From Pricia mediterranea (GTDB lineage: Bacteria; Bacteroidota; Bacteroidia; Flavobacteriales; Flavobacteriaceae), in the NCBI RefSeq assembly GCF_032248455.1, contig NZ_JAVTTP010000001.1, positions 2,416,501 to 2,480,500 of the forward strand: a DNA stretch of 64,000 nt, read 5' to 3'. Under the pieces are notes generated by a model, which saw only the letters and a program-made list of their open reading frames with translations, ran no database searches and was not told the DNA's origin. Numbering within the stretch: position 1 is the stretch's first letter; every line of letters begins with the position of its first letter. This document shows, piece by piece, positions 3,702 to 37,887 of this stretch. The position numbers and the translations under genes are program-made.

Positions 3702-4814
3702 CTAGACGGCCTCGAACATTTTTCCAGGCAAGGGCCGCACGACCCCTTTTATTTCCATGTTCAATAAGGTAGATGATACCTTGAACACCGGTAATCGACA
3801 TTCCAGCGCAATGGTATCCAGCAATTGTTTGCCGTCCCTAAGCAGATAATCGTGGATCGCTCGCTCGGTATCGTCCAATCCCACGAAAAGCTGCTGTTGC
3901 GCATTTTGGTTCTTTTTTTCTTCGACGTCCCAATTCAACAGATAGACCAGGTCGGCCGCCGAAGTCATCATATGGGCCCGATGTCGTTTGATGAGGTTGT
4001 TGCATCCCACGCTGTATTTATCATGGGTACGCCCCGGTACGGCGAAGACATCGCGATCATAGCTGTTGGCAATATCCGCTGTGACCAAACTGCCCCCTCT
4101 TTCCGCGGATTCTACTACTACCGTAGCCTCGCTCATACCCGCAATGATGCGGTTCCGCTTTAGAAAATGCTCCCTTTCCGGCTGGCTCGTACTCCAGAAC
4201 TCGGTGTAAAATCCCCCATTTTTCTCGACATCCCTAATGTATTTGGCATGTGCTTTCGGATAGATTTGGTTGAGGCCGTGCGCCAGACATCCGATGGTTT
4301 GCAGGCCGTGTTTTACCGCCGCTCTCTGAACCGTAATATCGACTCCATAGGCAAATCCGCTCACGATAATCGGGTTCAGGGGAGCGATGTCTTCAATGAA
4401 TTTCTCGCAGAAAGCCCTGCCGTAGCTTGTTATTTGACGGGTACCGACAACACTGATAATTTTTCGCCCTGTCAATTCGATATTCCCGCGTTGGAACAAC
4501 AGCACGGGACTATCGGAGCAGTGTTTCAGGTATTCGGGATGTCGGGCATCCAAGAAATACGTGTATTCGATTTGATTTTTTTCGATGTATTCATACTCCG
4601 CTTCGGCAGCCTCCCGATGTTGCGCATCGTAGAGTCCGCTTAGGGTGTAAGAGCCGATGCCGTCTATTTTCAATAGCCGTTGCCGCTTATCGGCGAAGAC
4701 CGCAGCGGGGCTCCCGCAATAGGATATCAGTTTTTTTGCGGTCACATCGCCTATATTCGGAACATGCTGCAGCCGTAAGACCGATATAAGCTCATTTTCG
4801 TCCATTTCGTTCAT
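3702..4814 (-). CDS. dprA: DNA-processing protein DprA (Smf)
   Basis: DprA binds incoming single-stranded DNA and loads RecA during natural transformation. The N-terminal part has HhH-like elements (VPNIGDVTAKKL, IDGIGSYTLSG). The Rossmann-like core carries SVVGTRQITSYG, SGFAYGVD and the signature ERGGSLVTADIA, followed by AVPGR. A winged-helix tail (DML1-like) closes the protein, about 370 aa in all, normal for the family. The longest frame begins at a TTG at 4829 that lies inside an exact -7 box (4827-4834), so I use the ATG at 4814; another ATG at 4805 is possible. It is transcribed divergently from the HU-like/SPOR gene. Confidence 0.93.
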   Translation of the reverse strand: MNEMDENELISVLRLQHVPNIGDVTAKKLISYCGSPAAVFADKRQRLLKIDGIGSYTLSGLYDAQHREAAEAEYEYIEKNQIEYTYFLDARHPEYLKHCSDSPVLLFQRGNIELTGRKIISVVGTRQITSYGRAFCEKFIEDIAPLNPIIVSGFAYGVDITVQRAAVKHGLQTIGCLAHGLNQIYPKAHAKYIRDVEKNGGFYTEFWSTSQPEREHFLKRNRIIAGMSEATVVVESAERGGSLVTADIANSYDRDVFAVPGRTHDKYSVGCNNLIKRHRAHMMTSAADLVYLLNWDVEEKKNQNAQQQLFVGLDDTERAIHDYLLRDGKQLLDTIALECRLPVFKVSSTLLNMEIKGVVRPLPGKMFEAV

Positions 4815-4852: not shown

Positions 4853-4919
4853 TATAATGTTAATAAATAGTAAGCGGGCGGCTGGTATCCCCATTTAAAT
4901 TTTATAATCTTTGTACCAG

Positions 4920-5879
4920 ATGGCACTAGAACACTATATATCTGAACTGCTTTACCGCTACAACTGCGTTGTGGTGCCGGGTTTCGGCGCGTTTTTGACC
5001 CAACCGAGGTCCGCCGTCATCCATGAAGAAACCCAGACCTTTTATCCTCCGATGAAAAGGGTATCCTTCAACCAGCAGCTGGTGGCCAATGACGGGCTGT
5101 TGGTGTCCCATATGGCAGAAGTCCAAAAAACCACTTTCGAAGACATGCTAAAGCAGGTCGAGGAAGAGGTGGCAGATTGGATCTCAAGACTGCAAAACGG
5201 GGAGCGGCTCGAGTTGGCCCAAATCGGTGAAGTCTGGTCCGGTGCCGAGGGGAGGATACAGTTTCAGCCTTCCGGAAAAACCAATTATCTGATGGCTTCC
5301 TACGGGATGTCCTCTTTTGCCGCCGTTCCGGTAGCTCGGGAAACCATGAAAGAAGAGGTGGCCGCTTTGGAAGAAAAGACTCCTTTTGCCTTCACGCCCG
5401 AAACTCGCAAAAGTGTAGCGGCCCGACCCTATTTAAAATATGCGGCGGTCGTCTTGTTGGCGCTTACTGCCGGGGTGGCAGGCTTCCAGTTCTACCAGGC
5501 CGACCGGAACAATCATCAGTTGGTGCGCGAAGAGGCGCAGCAACAGGTTTCCAAACGTATTCAGGAGGCCACTTTTTTCGACACCGACCCGTTAGAGCTG
5601 CCTACGATTACCCTGAAAACCACAAAGAAGTCGGTAACGGACAAAGCGGGACAAAAAATACACCACATAATTGCTGGCGCATTCCGCTATAAAACCAATG
5701 CCGATAAAAGAATAGCACAGTTGCAAAAGCTGGGTTTCAACCCCTCCTATATCGGAACCAATCCTTTCGGACTGCATATGGTAGCGTACGACAGCTTTAA
5801 TGATGCGCAAAAAGCCTTGAGTGAACTTCATCGGGTCAAACGCTCCCAAAAAGATGCTTGGTTAAAGTCCGTCAGGTGA
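4920..5879 (+). CDS. HU-CCDC81-like and SPOR domain membrane protein
   Basis: A 319-aa Bacteroidetes-type protein. The N-terminus (LEHYISELLYRYNCVVVPGFGAF) is typical of the bacterial HU-CCDC81 domain pair (about 1-135), relatives of HU-type DNA-binding folds. A single membrane segment follows (about 178-194, AAVVLLALTAGVAGFQF), then a C-terminal SPOR domain (about 250-319, HHIIAGAFRYKTNADKRI) that binds peptidoglycan with denuded glycan strands at division sites. The topology puts the HU-like domains in the cytoplasm and SPOR in the periplasm. The ATG at 4920 is preferred over a TTG at 4911, because TTTG at 4910-4913 looks like the end of a -7 box. The precise function is unknown. Confidence 0.85.
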   Translation: MALEHYISELLYRYNCVVVPGFGAFLTQPRSAVIHEETQTFYPPMKRVSFNQQLVANDGLLVSHMAEVQKTTFEDMLKQVEEEVADWISRLQNGERLELAQIGEVWSGAEGRIQFQPSGKTNYLMASYGMSSFAAVPVARETMKEEVAALEEKTPFAFTPETRKSVAARPYLKYAAVVLLALTAGVAGFQFYQADRNNHQLVREEAQQQVSKRIQEATFFDTDPLELPTITLKTTKKSVTDKAGQKIHHIIAGAFRYKTNADKRIAQLQKLGFNPSYIGTNPFGLHMVAYDSFNDAQKALSELHRVKRSQKDAWLKSVR

Positions 5880-26994: not shown

Positions 26995-28356
26995 TTACTC
27001 TTTAACCAAGTTGATTTCAACCCTTCTGTTCTCTGCTCTACCGGCTCTAGTGTTGTTAGTGGCGATAGGCTTATCCTCACCGTAACCGATGGCGGACAAT
27101 CTGAACTCTTGGATACCTTTGTCAACTAAGAACTCTTTTACGGAAAGTGCTCTAGACTCAGATAGACTCTTGTTCAATTTTTCGCTACCCACGCTATCCG
27201 TATGACCTTCGACGGTGAACTTAGCATTAGGATACTCGTTCAGGATTTGGATAATGTCGACCATTACTGAAGTTGATTCAGCTTTAATCGATGATTTACC
27301 AGTGTCGAAGTTGATGGTACGAGCATACTCGTTCAATTGCTTCTGAACTTCTTCGGTAACTTCTGGGCAACCGTCGTTCGCTACGGTACCGGGAGTGTCA
27401 ACACACTTGTCATCTTTATCCAAGACGCCGTCACCATCTGTATCGGGCCATGGGCATCCGTTGTTCTCGGCAGGACCTGCTTCGTTCGGGCACTCATCGT
27501 CTCCATCGGCAACTCCGTCACCGTCAGCATCAGGACATCCATCAAGCGCAGCTATACCAGCTTCGTTCGGACACTTATCGTCTTTATCGGCAATGCCGTC
27601 GCCATCAGAGTCTGGGCAACCGTTCATTTCTTTAGAACCGGCTTCATTCGGACATTCATCGTCTTTGTCCGGAATACCGTCGCCGTCAGAATCTGGGCAA
27701 CCTTGGAATTCCTCTAAGCCAGCAACTTCTGGACAAGCATCGTCCTTATCGTAGATGCCGTCACCGTCCGTATCGGTGCCGCCGAATTTAACCGCGATTC
27801 CAGCCATATGCTGAAAATGCTTGCGTCCGTAATCCTCGAACGCGTGCTTGTAGCTAGTTTGTACGGTAAGACCGATATTGTCGGTAAACCAAAAATTGAT
27901 ACCAAGACCACCATTTACGGTACCGGCACCAATTTCGTCAACCCAAGTATAACCACCACCGATCTCAACGAATGGATCGAGGATAAATTCGGGTGCAAAA
28001 GCATATTTTATTGTTCCATCTAAAGCATAGTGGGAAAGATCGTCCACGCCAACATCGCCCAATTTGTCGATCTTATTCAACGAACCTCTAACACCAACGG
28101 ACAAATTGTTGCCTACGGAGCGGGATACACCAATGTAAGAAATGGAAGGAAGAATGTTCCAGTGGTCGCTCGCGTTGAAGAACTCATTACCAAAAGAGCT
28201 GGTCTGAGTAGGGAAGTTGTCGTCGCTCGTCGGATAGACGTCAATGGCGTTCACCCCAAAACTAACCTGCCACGGGTTATTTTCGTCTTGCGCTTGCATG
28301 CTGCCAACGCCTACGAATAGCAGGGCGACAACCAATAATTTGCTAAGATGTTTCAT
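26995..28356 (-). CDS. OmpA family protein with thrombospondin type-3 repeats
   Basis: A 453-aa major outer-membrane protein. In order: signal peptide (MKHLSKLL to SMQAQ), N-terminal eight-strand-like barrel (about 24-190), five calcium-binding TSP3 repeats of about 27 aa (DxDGDGIxDKDDxCP) and a C-terminal OmpA peptidoglycan-binding domain ([29 protein letters not shown] split by function, RRVEINLV). It anchors the outer membrane to the cell wall; calcium probably stiffens the linker. The longest frame begins with a TTG at 28362; the ATG at 28356 is the better start. It has its own consensus promoter and a perfect terminator. Confidence 0.93.
27364..27774 (-). repeat. Five tandem TSP3 repeats within the OmpA-like gene
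   Basis: Units of 27 codons (one has 29) each with an Asp-rich calcium loop DxDGDGxxDxDD and two Cys-Pro turns. The DNA is imperfectly repeated every 81 bp. It is coding, so it should not be read as a CRISPR or satellite. Confidence 0.85.
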
Positions 28357-28390: not shown

Positions 28391-28421
28391 CAAATGTAAG
28401 TTGTTAAACATTATTAACAAA
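28391..28421 (-). promoter_or_regulatory. Promoter of the OmpA/TSP3 gene
   Basis: On the minus strand TTTG (28421-28418), 19 nt, TACATTTG (28398-28391): exact match to the Bacteroidetes -33/-7 consensus. The leader is about 32 nt. Confidence 0.85.
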
Positions 28422-28469: not shown

Positions 28470-29663
28470 TTAAACGATTTTCATTGCTTTTCCCACTTCA
28501 ATAAACGCCTCAATGGCTTTGTCTAGATGGGTCACTTCATGGGCGGCGGAGAGTTGTACGCGTATGCGCGCCATATCTTTCGGTACCACGGGATAGAAGA
28601 AACCGATTACATAGATTCCTTTCTCGAGCAGTCTGCTCGCCATTTCTTGGGCCAATTTGGCGTCGTAAAGCATTACGGGTACAATTGCGGATTCGCCATC
28701 TATGATATCGAAGCCGGCATCTTTAAGTCCTTTTTTAAAGTAGTCCGTGTTATCGTGAAGCTTATCGCGCAATGAGCTGTCCTTTTCCACCAATTCAAAC
28801 GCCTTGAGGGAGCCGCCCACAATAGCGGGAGCAAGGGAATTCGAAAAAAGATACGGGCGTGAGCGCTGGCGCAATATTTCAATAATCTCTCTCTTGCCGG
28901 TAGTATAACCTCCCATGGCCCCTCCCATGGCCTTTCCTAGGGTGCCAGTAATAATGTCGACCCGGTCCATTACCCCTTTCTCTTCATGGGTGCCACGTCC
29001 GCGAGCTCCGATAAAGCCCGTGGCATGACAATCGTCTATCATGACCAGGGCATCGTATTTCTCGGCAAGGTCGCAGATTTCGTCCAAGGGAGCCACCAGG
29101 CCGTCCATGGAGAAAACCCCGTCCGTCACGATAATCTTGAACCGCGCATTGTCCGCATTGGCCTGTTTGAGTTGTTTTTCGAGATCTGCCATGTCACTGT
29201 TGGCGTACCGAAACCGCATGGCCTTGCACAGACGAACCCCATCAATAATGGAGGCATGGTTCAGCGAATCGGAGATAATGGCGTCTTCTTTGGTCAGAAT
29301 AGGCTCGAACAATCCGCCGTTGGCGTCGAATGCCGCTGCGTACAATATGGTATCGTCCGTGCCATAAAATTCAGCGATTTTCTTTTCCAGTTCCTTATGA
29401 ATGTCCTGCGTACCACAAATAAACCGTACCGATGACATGCCAAAACCGTGGGAGTCCAACGTATCCTTTGCCGCTTGAATGACTTCGGGATGAGACGATA
29501 GGCCCAAATAATTGTTAGCACAAAAATTGATGACTTCCTCGCCGGTCGAGATTTGAATGACGGCGTCTTGGGCAGACGTAATAATACGTTCTTTTTTGTA
29601 GAGACCGTCTTCTTTGATCTGGTCCAATTCGTTTTGTAGATGTTCTTTGATTTTTCCGTACAT
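28470..29663 (-). CDS. kbl: Glycine C-acetyltransferase (2-amino-3-ketobutyrate CoA ligase)
   Basis: A 397-aa PLP enzyme joining CoA and 2-amino-3-ketobutyrate to give glycine and acetyl-CoA in threonine breakdown. Alpha-oxoamine synthase features are [14 protein letters not shown] near 48, the PLP Asp/His region [10 protein letters not shown], and the Schiff-base Lys in [10 protein letters not shown] use the ATG at 29663 (MYGKIKEHL), not the upstream TTG at 29672; TATTTTG, one base short of a -7 consensus, ends 6 nt before it. Threonine dehydrogenase is not adjacent. Confidence 0.93.
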
Positions 29664-29813
29664 AACTTGCAAAATAGTTAATCCTAGTTGATTAATAGGT
29701 TGTTTAGAAATCGAATTTTGATGCTAAAAGAAAATACTTTAAAATAGGATATGACTTTTAGGGCGGTCTTATGACATCCCGATTTCGCGATGCTGCCTTG
29801 CTTCGTCAAAAGC

Positions 29814-34189: not shown

Positions 34190-34546
34190 TTATCCTATAT
34201 ATTCCAGTTCCAAAAAATACCCGACGATCGCTTCCTTCATAAGCACTGACTGCTCTCCTGCCTTCAAGGGTGGCAGTTCTTCCTTTATCGTATAATGCGG
34301 CCATCCTTCTTCATCGAAAAACTCGAATTCGTAGTAGCCGTAAGGCTCCAGCAAACGGCAGATGGCGATATGCATCAGATCCAGCTTGTGGTCCTTTTTA
34401 AACTTTCTATCGAACTGACCGAGCTCTTGGATTCCGACCAGATAGATGATCGCGTCCAGATCCAAAGGGTCGCCATCGGCGAATTGTTGGGAGAGCTTTT
34501 TAACCAGCGTATCCCAATTCTGTTTTAGTTGCTCGTCTCTTGACAT
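34190..34546 (-). CDS. Conserved flavobacterial protein of unknown function
   Basis: A 118-aa acidic soluble protein without signal peptide or membrane segment. It is mostly helical at first (LKQNWDTLVKKLSQQF), then DLDAIIYLVGIQELG and a Gly/Tyr/Glu-rich strand region GYYEFEFFDEEGWPHY. I recognise it as a protein widespread in Flavobacteriia but know no function. The ATG lies 4 nt after an exact -7 box, so the mRNA may be leaderless. It is the first gene of a probable operon with the ABM protein and pbpC. Confidence 0.75.
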   Translation of the reverse strand: MSRDEQLKQNWDTLVKKLSQQFADGDPLDLDAIIYLVGIQELGQFDRKFKKDHKLDLMHIAICRLLEPYGYYEFEFFDEEGWPHYTIKEELPPLKAGEQSVLMKEAIVGYFLELEYIG

Positions 34547-34550
34547 GGCT

Positions 34551-34558
34551 CAAAGGTA
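34551..34558 (-). promoter_or_regulatory. -7 box abutting the start of the 118-aa gene
   Basis: TACCTTTG on the minus strand (34558-34551), an exact consensus match, followed by AGCC and then the ATG at 34546. No clear -33 TTTG is visible. It faces the cvpA box at 34572 within 48 bp. Confidence 0.55.
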
Positions 34559-34571
34559 CAAATCAAATCAC

Positions 34572-34579
34572 TATTTTTG
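34572..34579 (+). promoter_or_regulatory. -7 box of cvpA
   Basis: TATTTTTG is an exact consensus match ending 15 nt before the GTG start of cvpA. A good -33 box is not evident. Confidence 0.5.
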
Positions 34580-34594
34580 TAAAAACTGCCGCTC

Positions 34595-35107
34595 GTGTCT
34601 TTTTTGGATATTATTCTAGGAATATTGCTCTTATGGGGCCTGTGGAGGGGGCTTAGAAACGGACTCTTTATCGAACTGGCCTCGATTGCCGCCCTCATCG
34701 CCGGTATCTACGGTGCCATTCATTTTTCATATTACATTGGGGACTACCTCTCCCAAAACATGGATTGGAACGAACGTTACGTTAACCTCACCGCGTTTGT
34801 AGTTACATTTATCTTAATTGTATTGGTGGTCAGTTTATTGGGTAGGCTCTTGACCAAGGTGGCCGCCTTCGCCCTGCTCGGATGGCTCAACAGGTTGGCC
34901 GGCGGTGTTTTCGGCGTAGTGAAGGTAGCGGTCATCCTCGGGGCGCTGCTCGTGTTTTTCGACAGGGTCAATACTTCGGCCGGCCTAATCCAGGACGAAA
35001 GTATGGAGCAGTCCGTGCTCTATGAACCCATCAAGCAAATCGGGGCCCTTGTGTTCGATCGCGTCTTAAAGGAGCCGCTGGTGGAGAAGGAGACGTTTAT
35101 TCTTTAG
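34595..35107 (+). CDS. cvpA: CvpA family membrane protein
   Basis: A 170-aa inner-membrane protein with four predicted helices (about 4-22, 27-48, 64-86, 101-122). The start FLDIILGILLLWGLWRGLRNG is typical of the CvpA/colicin V production family, as is LNRLAGGVFGVVKVAVILG. E. coli CvpA is needed for colicin V export and envelope homeostasis; the biochemical role is unsettled. The start codon is GTG, chosen because it directly precedes the family N-terminus and follows the -7 box by 15 nt. Divergent from the 118-aa gene. Confidence 0.85.
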   Translation: MSFLDIILGILLLWGLWRGLRNGLFIELASIAALIAGIYGAIHFSYYIGDYLSQNMDWNERYVNLTAFVVTFILIVLVVSLLGRLLTKVAAFALLGWLNRLAGGVFGVVKVAVILGALLVFFDRVNTSAGLIQDESMEQSVLYEPIKQIGALVFDRVLKEPLVEKETFIL

Positions 35108-35293
35108 GTGATCGTCCAACCTAGAAACCGTGACTATTGCGATTCGTGAAGTCCCGTTATGTCAACACGGCATTTGCCCACTCCCTTCGTGAAAATTTGT
35201 CGGGAAGCCGTTGATTGATGCTGTCTTATCCTCAAACGGTTTTTTTCGGATGTTTTATTATCTTTAATTGTATATACACTAAACGCCATCAAT

Positions 35294-35770
35294 ATGAAAA
35301 TGTATCGAACACTACTAAACGCCTTACCGGTAATTGCCATTATTTGCTCAGTCAGCTGTAAGGATGCAAAACAGCAGGACCGGAACGAGCACCAGGAAGT
35401 ATCCAGTGAAAATTCAAATATGGAACTAAAAAAAGACAACGAACGGCAGGCTATGCCCGAAGATGCCGCCGGAGTGGGGCCCGCCGCGCAGACCGGGGGT
35501 ACTACTGGGGCATCCAACAATTTGAAGATGTCGACCGAACCGGCCCAAACCGGCTCCGGTCTCAATTTGGATGCGTTGTACGAACGTCTGGAAATGACGG
35601 AGAAGCAAATTGATAATTTTAAAAATGCGATGGGAGACGACCTCAACAGGGTACAAAATGCCAACGGTGAAATACCCGGTAATATCTATCAGGATATGGA
35701 AAGCAAGTTGCAGTCCGTTCTAGACGGGGGGCAGCTCGAAAAATATCGGGAGTGGAAGAAGGAGTGGTGA
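35294..35770 (+). CDS. Small lipoprotein of unknown function
   Basis: A 158-aa protein with a lipoprotein signal peptide (MKMYRTLLN, hydrophobic stretch, lipobox ICSVSC, C22). The mature part is low-complexity and charged to about residue 95 (Gly/Ala/Thr-rich GPAAQTGGTTGAS), followed by a helical C-terminal part (LYERLEMTEKQIDNF, DMESKLQSVL). It may be a periplasmic tether or sensor; I do not recognise a family. A near-match -7 box TATCTTTA precedes it. It converges with the hydroxyproline gene, 26 nt between stops. Confidence 0.65.
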   Translation: MKMYRTLLNALPVIAIICSVSCKDAKQQDRNEHQEVSSENSNMELKKDNERQAMPEDAAGVGPAAQTGGTTGASNNLKMSTEPAQTGSGLNLDALYERLEMTEKQIDNFKNAMGDDLNRVQNANGEIPGNIYQDMESKLQSVLDGGQLEKYREWKKEW

Positions 35771-35796
35771 GGGGAAATGACCGGTCTTGTTGGGCT

Positions 35797-36897
35797 TCAT
35801 TGCAGGATAAACCCGTCCTTCATCGGGTCGTTCGGGTCGATAATAAAAATGTGCGTTCCCGTGATATGCGCCGTACCCTCTATTCGGGGAATGACCGCTT
35901 TGAATGGCCCATAATCTTGCTCGGATACTACGGACCCCTTGAATACCGATCCGGTAATGCTTTCGATGGCGATGGTCTCTCCAACTTCGATTTCCTCTCT
36001 AGCCCAGTGGATGGCCATCCTTCCGGATACGCCAGACCCGGTGGGACAGCGGTCTACTTCCCCTTCGGCGAAAATACAGATGTTTCTACTATGAACGTCC
36101 GGTTCGGTGGCATCCTCGATGCGATCGGTTCCCCTGATTCGGGAGGGGTCCCCGATAAAAATCGTTCCGTATAGGAAACTGAGATCTTCCTCGAACGGAT
36201 GCACAACGCCGGCATCCTGCTGCACTACGGCACGTTTGATATCCATCCCGGCAGAAATTAGGTTGCGATACGAATTTGGGGTCAAATCGAAATCAAAATG
36301 GTTCTTCCCCATATCGACATAGGCATAAAACGCTCCACCGTAGGCCAGGTCATACCTTACTTTGCCCAAACCCTCGACCTCGACCGTTCTATCGAGACCC
36401 ACTGCAAAACTGGGTACACCATGAAAACGGACGCCCGTGACCTTGCCCTGGCACATATGGGCAAAAGCGGTGATCCGCCCGCAGGGGGCATTGATCTTGA
36501 GGGTGTTATCTCCTTCCCGTACATCGACCCACCCCATTTCAACGGCCAAGGTCGAAAGGGCAATAATGGCATGTCCGCACATGGTGCTATAGCCTTCGTT
36601 ATGCAGAAAAATAACTCCGAAATCGCCATTTTCATCGTTGGGAGGCGTTAAGATGCAGCCGTACATATCGGCATGGCCCCGGGGCTCGAACATCAGGGCC
36701 GTACGCAAATGGTCAAAATGTTCCCGACAAAACCGACGGTATTCCAGAACGGAACCGCCCTTTAGCTCGGGAAAGCCCTCCACGATGACCCGCAGGGGCT
36801 CCCCGCCCGTATGCATATCAATGCTCTTGATCTGCAGCCAATCTTCGGGGGGATAAAGATCAATTTTTTGTCGGATACGCGCGAACACCTTAGCCAT
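35797..36897 (-). CDS. Proline racemase family, probable trans-3-hydroxy-L-proline dehydratase
   Basis: A 366-aa cytoplasmic enzyme of the proline racemase family. The first catalytic position is Cys in STMCGHAI. At the second site racemases and 4-hydroxyproline epimerases have SPCGTG; here the sequence is DRCPTGSG, placing Thr where the second Cys should be. That Cys/Thr pair is the mark of trans-3-hydroxy-L-proline dehydratases such as human L3HYPDH, which yield pyrroline-2-carboxylate. The next gene upstream encodes the matching reductase. Of several in-frame starts, the ATG at 36897 overlaps the upstream stop by 8 nt (ATGGCTAA), giving a coupled operon, and is preferred over 36942. Confidence 0.82.
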   Translation of the reverse strand: MAKVFARIRQKIDLYPPEDWLQIKSIDMHTGGEPLRVIVEGFPELKGGSVLEYRRFCREHFDHLRTALMFEPRGHADMYGCILTPPNDENGDFGVIFLHNEGYSTMCGHAIIALSTLAVEMGWVDVREGDNTLKINAPCGRITAFAHMCQGKVTGVRFHGVPSFAVGLDRTVEVEGLGKVRYDLAYGGAFYAYVDMGKNHFDFDLTPNSYRNLISAGMDIKRAVVQQDAGVVHPFEEDLSFLYGTIFIGDPSRIRGTDRIEDATEPDVHSRNICIFAEGEVDRCPTGSGVSGRMAIHWAREEIEVGETIAIESITGSVFKGSVVSEQDYGPFKAVIPRIEGTAHITGTHIFIIDPNDPMKDGFILQ

Positions 36898-37849
36898 CGA
36901 TGAATTTTTGGTAGTAATAAGATGCGGCCGTGAGGTCCTCAAGAGCGTGGCCGACAGATTTAAAACAGGTGATTTCCTCGGGATGTCTTCTTCCCTTGAC
37001 CTTATCGGAGCAAAGCCCGAAGAGGTCTCCCTTGATATCCTCTTTCTTTAGGGCACCGGTCTTCAGTGGGATGGCAATATCGCCGCTTTCCTTAAGTCCG
37101 CCTTGAAAGGTATCGATATAGACGGATGCCTTTTGGAGCGTTTCGTCATCCGCCTCGCGCATATCCTTTTTATAGGCCCCGACCAGATCGATATGTTGTC
37201 CGATTTTGAGATGCTTCCCAAAAATCAGCGGATCGGGGGACAGGGTTGCCGACGATACGATATCGACCTCCGTGATTTTTTCCTCGATGGCCGTCACGGG
37301 CCGGCAATCGAAATCCTCTGCCTTTAGGGCATCACATACCAACTGCGCCTTTTCAAAATCACGTCCCCAAACGTATACGTTTTTAATGGGCCTGACGCTG
37401 GCGTGGGCAAGGATCAGATTGGTTGAAAGTGCGCCGGTACCGATCATCAACAGCGAAGAAGCATCCGCTCGAGACAGAAACGAAGAGGCCAGGGCCGAGG
37501 CAGCGGCTGTACGCTTTGCGGTCAGGCTTTTGGCCTGCAACATCGCCATTACCGTACCCTTTAAAGCATCCAACAAAACATAGACGGCTTGAATGGAAGG
37601 CAGGTCAAACCGACCATTTTCGGGACTTACCGTAGCGATCTTGACCCCGGCCACCTTTCCCGAGTGCCATGCCGGCATCAGCAAAAGGGTGGAATCGGCC
37701 CCCACCTCTGGGTTCGGAAAATCGTGGTGGTGCCGCATGGGTACCAAGATATCTTCCGAGGCGAATCCCTTTTTCAGGGCAGCGATCAGCTCCGGAAAGT
37801 CCGTGTTTTTATTGATAAAATCGTCGGGTATTTGAACCATATCTTCCAT
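36890..37849 (-). CDS. Ornithine cyclodeaminase/mu-crystallin family, probable pyrroline-2-carboxylate reductase
   Basis: A 319-aa NAD(P)-dependent enzyme of the ornithine cyclodeaminase/mu-crystallin family. Seen are the Arg-Met-Arg-like region VPMRHHHDF, LLMPAWHSGKVAGVKIATV, and the Rossmann motif IGTGALSTNLILAH followed by VYVWGRD. Family members reduce cyclic imines; together with the downstream trans-3-hydroxyproline dehydratase-like protein, reduction of delta-1-pyrroline-2-carboxylate to L-proline is the best reading. The longest frame starts with a TTG inside an exact -7 box, so the ATG at 37849 is used. It overlaps the next gene by 8 nt. Confidence 0.82.
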   Translation of the reverse strand: MEDMVQIPDDFINKNTDFPELIAALKKGFASEDILVPMRHHHDFPNPEVGADSTLLLMPAWHSGKVAGVKIATVSPENGRFDLPSIQAVYVLLDALKGTVMAMLQAKSLTAKRTAAASALASSFLSRADASSLLMIGTGALSTNLILAHASVRPIKNVYVWGRDFEKAQLVCDALKAEDFDCRPVTAIEEKITEVDIVSSATLSPDPLIFGKHLKIGQHIDLVGAYKKDMREADDETLQKASVYIDTFQGGLKESGDIAIPLKTGALKKEDIKGDLFGLCSDKVKGRRHPEEITCFKSVGHALEDLTAASYYYQKFIDG

Positions 37850-37855
37850 AACGCT

Positions 37856-37887
37856 CAAAAATAGGGAATTAATGAGGACGGCTGCAA
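37856..37887 (-). promoter_or_regulatory. Promoter of the hydroxyproline operon
   Basis: On the minus strand TTG (37887-37885), 21 nt, TATTTTTG (37863-37856), then only six bases before the ATG at 37849. Good -33/-7 match; implies an almost leaderless mRNA. Confidence 0.7.

Follow-up and report, generated by a model that had tools for sequence, protein, structure and literature searches.

We analysed a 64,000-nucleotide stretch of the Pricia mediterranea genome (contig NZ_JAVTTP010000001.1, positions 2,416,501 to 2,480,500), hereafter the window, in which promoter boxes of the TAnnTTTG type directly precede several start codons. In this genome a small set of genes carries the box exactly four bases before the start codon, apart from the boxes of ordinary leadered genes, and in these genes the mRNA probably begins at the start codon itself. 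The mRNA of the window gene 34546, which belongs to this set, is very probably leaderless. With good confidence we interpret the boxes next to start codons as ordinary -7 elements, which would give leaderless transcripts where four nucleotides separate box and ATG (34546) and, less securely, leaders of 0-2 nt where the distance is six. Throughout the text an exact box is TAnnTTTG, the gap is the number of nucleotides between the box end and the start codon, and the window genes 34546, 37849, 4920 and 29663 are named after the coordinates of their ATG starts.

Spacing between the -7 box and the start codon

The window is not enriched in the box as such: 45 exact copies were found versus 40.8 expected, and 24 of 100 shuffled sequences reach 45. 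Since the box is no commoner than in shuffles, only its position can carry meaning. Among the 46 ATG genes of the window two have an exact box at gap 4-6, against 0.04 to 0.15 expected under three backgrounds (P from 0.0009 to 0.011).

For the spacing profile we used 77 stretches of 20 kb from the same genome (57, then 20 more) together with the window, 1.604 Mb in all. Genes were called by an in-frame hexamer score, and starts were picked by coding score and start-codon type, blind to promoters and boxes. Out of 1195 genes called, the 1050 with an ATG start and at least 160 nt of upstream sequence were used, and 145 (GTG or TTG starts, or stretch edges) were excluded; 29 letter permutations of the box served as motif controls. 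Exact boxes numbered 4 at gaps 0-3, 18 at gaps 4-6, 5 at gaps 7-13 and 75 at gaps 14-30, a bimodal distribution whose close peak stands on a single base (14 genes at gap 4, one at gap 5 and three at gap 6). At gap 4-6 the permuted motifs averaged 0.9 and reached at most 4, compared with 18 for the real box. With the window left out, 13 boxes at gap 4 and 16 at gap 4-6 are found in 1004 genes; an earlier run on 58 sources had found gap 4 in 11 of 794 genes, the main count being based on 78 sources with retrained gene calls. At internal ATGs of any frame gap 4 occurs in 8 of 20031 cases (Fisher P 1e-13 versus gene starts). As a raw share, uncorrected for background, gap 4 makes up 14 of the 120 exact boxes at gaps 0-40. 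Where TTTG stands at gap 4, the second box position is A in 18 of 21 genes.

The same spacing was followed in whole genomes by counting TAnnTTTG-Nk-ATG in 31 of them: the own genome, 18 of the genus and family, and 12 from other families of the order. These counts use ATG triplets, not called starts, and their controls are gaps of equal reading phase. Gap 4 exceeds both gap 7 and gap 10 in 31 of 31 genomes, with sums of 2693 versus 1639 and 1554; in the own genome the counts are 93 versus 52 and 48, an excess of about 43. The summed count at gap 5 is 2090, given here without a phase-matched control. In G046, a 1.9-Mb genome of another family of the order, gap 4 occurs 137 times versus 37 and 48 for gaps 7 and 10, which possibly corresponds to some ninety leaderless genes.

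Genes with a gap of 3-7 number 22 in the own genome, among them uvrA, recR, gltX, lipB and guaA (gap 3), as well as genes of an RlmD-type and an MtaB-type methyltransferase. lipB has gap 4 in the own genome (L180:2272-3009, minus strand) and gap 5 in genome G035 (L194:15254-15970, plus strand), and may be taken as a second candidate for a conserved leaderless gene.

Imperfect boxes were considered as a general class at gap 4-6 and rejected, a mismatch at T-12 occurring in 5 genes versus a control mean of 3.4. The variants TA-N3-TTTG and TA-N1-TTTG were likewise rejected, with one gene each at gap 6 and not above background. Mismatches at T-6 (7 versus 2.4 in controls) and at the final G (20 versus 2.8; at gap 14-30, 92 versus 26) appear enriched, which may reflect T-rich or A+T-rich sequence near starts.

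Genes of the window with abutting boxes

The first-pass annotation had reported exact boxes four nucleotides before ATG 34546 and six before ATG 37849, and similar imperfect ones at 4920 and 29663; all four are present in the sequence, the imperfect ones each at gap 6. Its statement that naive longest open reading frames start inside or upstream of the promoter is right for three genes, whose TTG codons at 37858 (for 37849), 4911 (for 4920) and 29672 (for 29663) lie inside the box. It fails for 34546, because an in-frame TGA overlaps the box there and the longest reading frame begins at ATG 34546 itself. As to the proposed leaderless or near-leaderless mRNAs, 34546 is well supported by the gap-4 class and its conserved ATG, and for 37849, 4920 and 29663 a near-leaderless state is no more than plausible, gap 6 having no genome-wide class.

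Gene 34546 (34190..34546, minus strand) encodes a conserved protein of 118 amino acids without a Pfam match. Its primary sigma factor -7 box, TACCTTTG (34558-34551, minus strand), is followed by AGCC and then by the ATG. Counting the own genome, 57 of the 60 genomes searched have the protein; its N-terminus is conserved from the ATG, and an ATG occupies the aligned position in 28 of 30 loci (the own locus among them). Exact boxes were sought within 75 nt upstream of the start, here as in the other ortholog tables. In the 30 loci the gap is 4 in five (own included), 9 in one, 16 in nine, 19 in one and 28-56 in eight, and 6 of the 30 have no exact box within that distance. In G046 the ortholog match begins directly after TACTTTTG-N4-ATG. 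We also observed that GATTTGTACCTTTG (window 34564-34551, minus strand) recurs in L004 and L010-L013 at box-to-ATG gaps of 16-56 nt. As this sequence is common to relatives with longer gaps, the promoter is probably old, and the leaderless state would be recently derived by loss of the leader in the window's species. On the other strand the divergent cvpA-like gene (Colicin_V, PF02674; 34595..35107, plus strand; start GTG 34595 or TTG 34604) has TATTTTTG at 34572..34579 (plus strand), 15 nt before GTG 34595, as its likely -7 box with an ordinary leader.

The gene 37849 (36890..37849, minus strand) belongs to the ornithine cyclodeaminase/mu-crystallin family (PF02423), and is predicted to be near-leaderless; its codon 4 is another in-frame ATG, and the gene after it is of the proline-racemase family (35797-36897). 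Its exact box TATTTTTG (37863-37856, minus strand) precedes AGCGTT and the ATG. A match to the gene was found in 13 of 60 genomes; its ortholog table excludes two weak matches (28-30% identity). By "Pricia loci" we mean the window's own locus and those of the same-genus genomes G001-G003, whose assignment to Pricia we infer. In the other three a TATTTTTG or TACTTTTG box again stands at gap 6, box and gap being retained although the sequence further upstream differs. G035 has gap 4, and in the six next relatives no exact box occurs within 75 nt. A direct repeat ATCAGGGT-N5-ATCAGGGT was noticed by eye upstream of the gene at 37907-37887 (minus strand).

A well-placed -33 box had also been claimed for 37849. 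There is indeed a TTG 21 nt upstream of the -7 box; at a spacing of 17-23 nt the three other Pricia loci lack it, and in G035 the spacing is 19. Among promoters of the genome sample TTG lies 17-23 nt upstream in 4 of 22 close-box ones (CAA 3, GTT 3) and in 17 of 75 leadered ones (CAA 9, GTT 12). Being little above control words and not kept in the genus, the -33 box was dropped as additional evidence; in Flavobacterium johnsoniae this motif is described as weak or not evident (PMC6847099).

Support for the imperfect boxes of 4920 and 29663 comes only from orthologs. The gene 4920 (4920..5879, plus strand) encodes an HU-CCDC81/SPOR protein, whose closest titled relatives are three Pricia records with 77-81% identity, and it is divergent from dprA (3702-4814, minus strand). 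Its box AATCTTTG (4906..4913, plus strand; alternatively TA-N3-TTTG from 4905) ends 6 nt before the ATG, and a conserved element, TGTTAATAA, lies upstream at 4858..4866 (plus strand) at a fixed distance from it. Two sets of loci were compared: the best 80 of 105 (L222-L301) and a wider set of 30, own included (L102-L131); some genomes are in both. In the closer set all 80 loci have a TTTG ending 5-8 nt before the start (one start being GTG), the first box T is never T and the box reads mostly CATATTTG or AATATTTG. In the wider set 18 of 30 loci, own included, have exact TAnnTTTG at gap 4-7. An element GTT(A/G)ATAA together with a TTTG box 4-8 nt before the start was found in 106 of the 110 loci (94 distinct 75-mers in the 106), with search windows set after viewing the 80. 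The exceptions are L115 and L121 (box without element), L127 (neither) and L128 (element, no box inside the counted window).

From the element start to the box end there are 53-56 bp (54-56 in 105 of 106 loci), while the gap ranges over 4-8, and element position and gap are correlated at -0.85. The element holds its distance to the box and not to the start codon, which is what a promoter role of the box would predict. Possibly the TGTTAATAA-type element is an activator or repressor site. In G046 TAGTTTTG-N5-ATG stands two codons ahead of the HU match. Such conservation across the family makes a near-leaderless state of 4920 plausible; among the open-licence papers listed, no title dealt with leaderless initiation of the HU-CCDC81 gene, and no paper was found that joins CCDC81 with Bacteroidetes. 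Two other roles of the element were considered. As a regulon-wide element TGTTAATAA was rejected: base composition predicts 17 sites in the 1.6 Mb sample and 8 are present, of which the one at 4858 alone has a TTTG box at the module distance, the boxes near the one at 28419 being spaced differently. A role in the dprA promoter was partly rejected, since the element persists in L111, whose retrieved flank showed no dprA, and in L112, with dprA 204 nt away.

The gene 29663 (28470..29663, minus strand) is an aminotransferase class I/II gene by Pfam match (PF00155), which probably encodes glycine C-acetyltransferase (kbl). Its imperfect box CTATTTTG (29670..29677, minus strand), holding TA-N1-TTTG, ends 6 nt before the ATG. 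Two of the other three Pricia loci retain TTTG at gap 6, one of them as an exact box, and this conservation in the genus makes a near-leaderless start plausible. Among 26 loci outside the genus exact boxes lie at 15-66 nt in 17 and at 4-8 nt in none, and 9 lack an exact box within 75 nt. As a separate observation, a palindrome TTGTTAATAATGTTTAACAA lies at 28420-28391 (minus strand), just upstream of the TACATTTG box of an OmpA-family gene (26995-28356), and in six or more relatives (L134, L135, L137-L140) similar letters adjoin the kbl-like gene.

Proposed mechanism and competing explanations

We propose that the TAnnTTTG boxes act as -7 elements of the primary sigma factor of Bacteroidetes (sigma-ABfr type) and that RNA polymerase would start 4-5 nt after the final G of the box. 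Given the published distance of 4-5 nt from box to transcription start site, gap 4 would put +1 on the A of the AUG and yield a leaderless mRNA, on whose 5'-terminal AUG ribosomes could initiate without Shine-Dalgarno pairing; in this phylum ribosomes ignore Shine-Dalgarno sequences, the 16S tail being held in a protein pocket (PMC9976891). Gene 34546 would follow this geometry, and gap 6 (37849, 4920 and 29663) would leave a less secure leader of 0-2 nt. From the box positions, bimodal spacing, gap-4 excess and start-codon conservation observed in this work we infer the actual 5' ends and translation from them, taking the box-to-start distance and the existence of leaderless mRNAs from the literature.

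Several results weigh against this interpretation. Of 253 genes in the 20 later stretches of the own genome, just 2 have gap 4 and 3 fall at gap 4-6. Among the 31 genomes the gap-4 excess is negligible in G006 (68 versus 62 and 62) and G047 (28 versus 24 and 27). Stretch samples of two further genomes are weak at gap 4-6: G035 has 4 of 268 genes there and G024 has 2 of 293, and permuted motifs reach 2 in each. At 34546 the other three Pricia loci lack a gap-4 box (gap 51 in one, none within 75 nt in two), so the genus as a whole does not share the arrangement. Gap 6 shows no excess over its phase-matched gaps in the 31 genomes, the sums being 2867 versus 2757 (gap 9) and 2835 (gap 12), with gap 6 above both in just 15 of 31; we rejected it as a general near-leaderless class.

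Chance could be suspected behind the abutting boxes, with the real promoters lying upstream and the mRNAs leadered or read from an upstream gene: the 8-mer is common, its copies in the window matching chance, and 37849 sits 73 bp downstream of a codirectional gene, so that read-through is possible. We regard this explanation as unlikely. The position of the boxes is non-random, unlike their number; the start codons of 34546 and the divergent cvpA-like gene are 48 bp apart, and upstream on the minus strand no further exact box occurs before 37368; for 37849 the Pricia loci keep box and gap despite differing upstream sequence. Far less probable still is a start at the upstream TTG inside the box, with TTTG as coding sequence. 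The three TTG codons named above are in frame with their ATGs, but conservation of the proteins sets in at the ATG, orthologs with gaps 4, 5, 7 and 8 have the TTG out of frame, and a transcript starting past the box would not contain it. For 34546 such a start is impossible owing to the in-frame TGA.

For 37849 in particular, an ordinary short leader with translation from the codon-4 ATG, 15 nt past the box, and the first ATG unused, deserves consideration, being doubtful rather than remote. All four Pricia loci have ATG at codon 4 (MEDM, MEKM, MEKM, MGNM), the resulting gap of 15 falls on the margin of the leadered mode, and gap 6 lacks genome-wide enrichment. The codon-4 ATG is not conserved outside the genus, where starts align with the first ATG in L093 (MTKL, box gap 4), L094, L095, L097 and L098, one codon later in L096 and two in L099, and at codon 4 in none of the relatives beyond Pricia. 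A near-leaderless start at Met1, preferred here over Met4, is plausible.

Implications and relation to known systems

As a broader proposal, which we offer tentatively and rate at slightly less than an even chance, leaderless initiation in Flavobacteriales may form a discrete class in precise register, in which the AUG is set at +1 by a gap of 4 nt, and not the tail of a distribution of leader lengths. Some genes would keep it for long, as in the HU-CCDC81/SPOR module (TGTTAATAA-type element, about 40 bp, TTTG-type box, 4-8 nt), whose expression may depend on leaderless initiation and on a regulator about 55 bp upstream, and G046 may use this mode for about ninety genes. Candidate leaderless genes can be listed from DNA alone, and for annotation a TTG lying in frame within a gap-6 box should probably not be read as a start. 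The analysis also names genes for testing how ribosomes that ignore Shine-Dalgarno sequences begin on a bare AUG, the HU-CCDC81/SPOR module providing a good test gene.

Leaderless or very short leaders at about 4-6% have already been reported in the phylum (PMC9723704, PMC7366714); the mode is known, and 34546 and the others would be additional members. A register of a single base across 31 genomes, the missing gap-6 class and the HU-CCDC81/SPOR module did not appear in the parts of the cited papers available to us. An earlier survey (PMC3160421) likewise inferred leaderless genes from a promoter-like box near the start, but it sought Pribnow-like boxes and found such genes in 1 of 37 Bacteroidetes/Chlorobi genomes, whereas the phylum's own box reveals a gap-4 excess, in single-base register, in all 31 genomes counted here. 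That paper names its own Pribnow-box limit and judges a missed high percentage unlikely, and the class seen here with the phylum's own box is indeed small.

The remaining comparisons concern three species. Bacteroides thetaiotaomicron belongs to another order. It shares with Pricia the phylum, the sigma factor class and a leaderless minority, 3.7% of 5' untranslated regions being under 10 nt by differential RNA-seq, but the example genes there are transposases, sensor kinases and transporters (PMC7366714). F. johnsoniae resembles Pricia in its promoter geometry, with 4 or 5 nt from the -7 box to the transcription start site in many promoters, and its -33 motif is weak; that study differs in concluding that most mRNAs are leadered, with leaders of more than 10 nt in 87% of predicted transcripts with a probable promoter and of 10 nt or less in 13%, and in the parts of it at hand no profile of box versus ATG spacing was found (PMC6847099). 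The likeness to Flavobacterium psychrophilum, of the same family and with the same TAnnTTTG box, lies in the geometry: the box stands at -12 to -5, which predicts gap 4, and 5.5% of mapped mRNAs are leaderless (PMC9723704). There the 5' ends were measured by 5'-end RNA-seq, whereas the Pricia cases are deduced from DNA.

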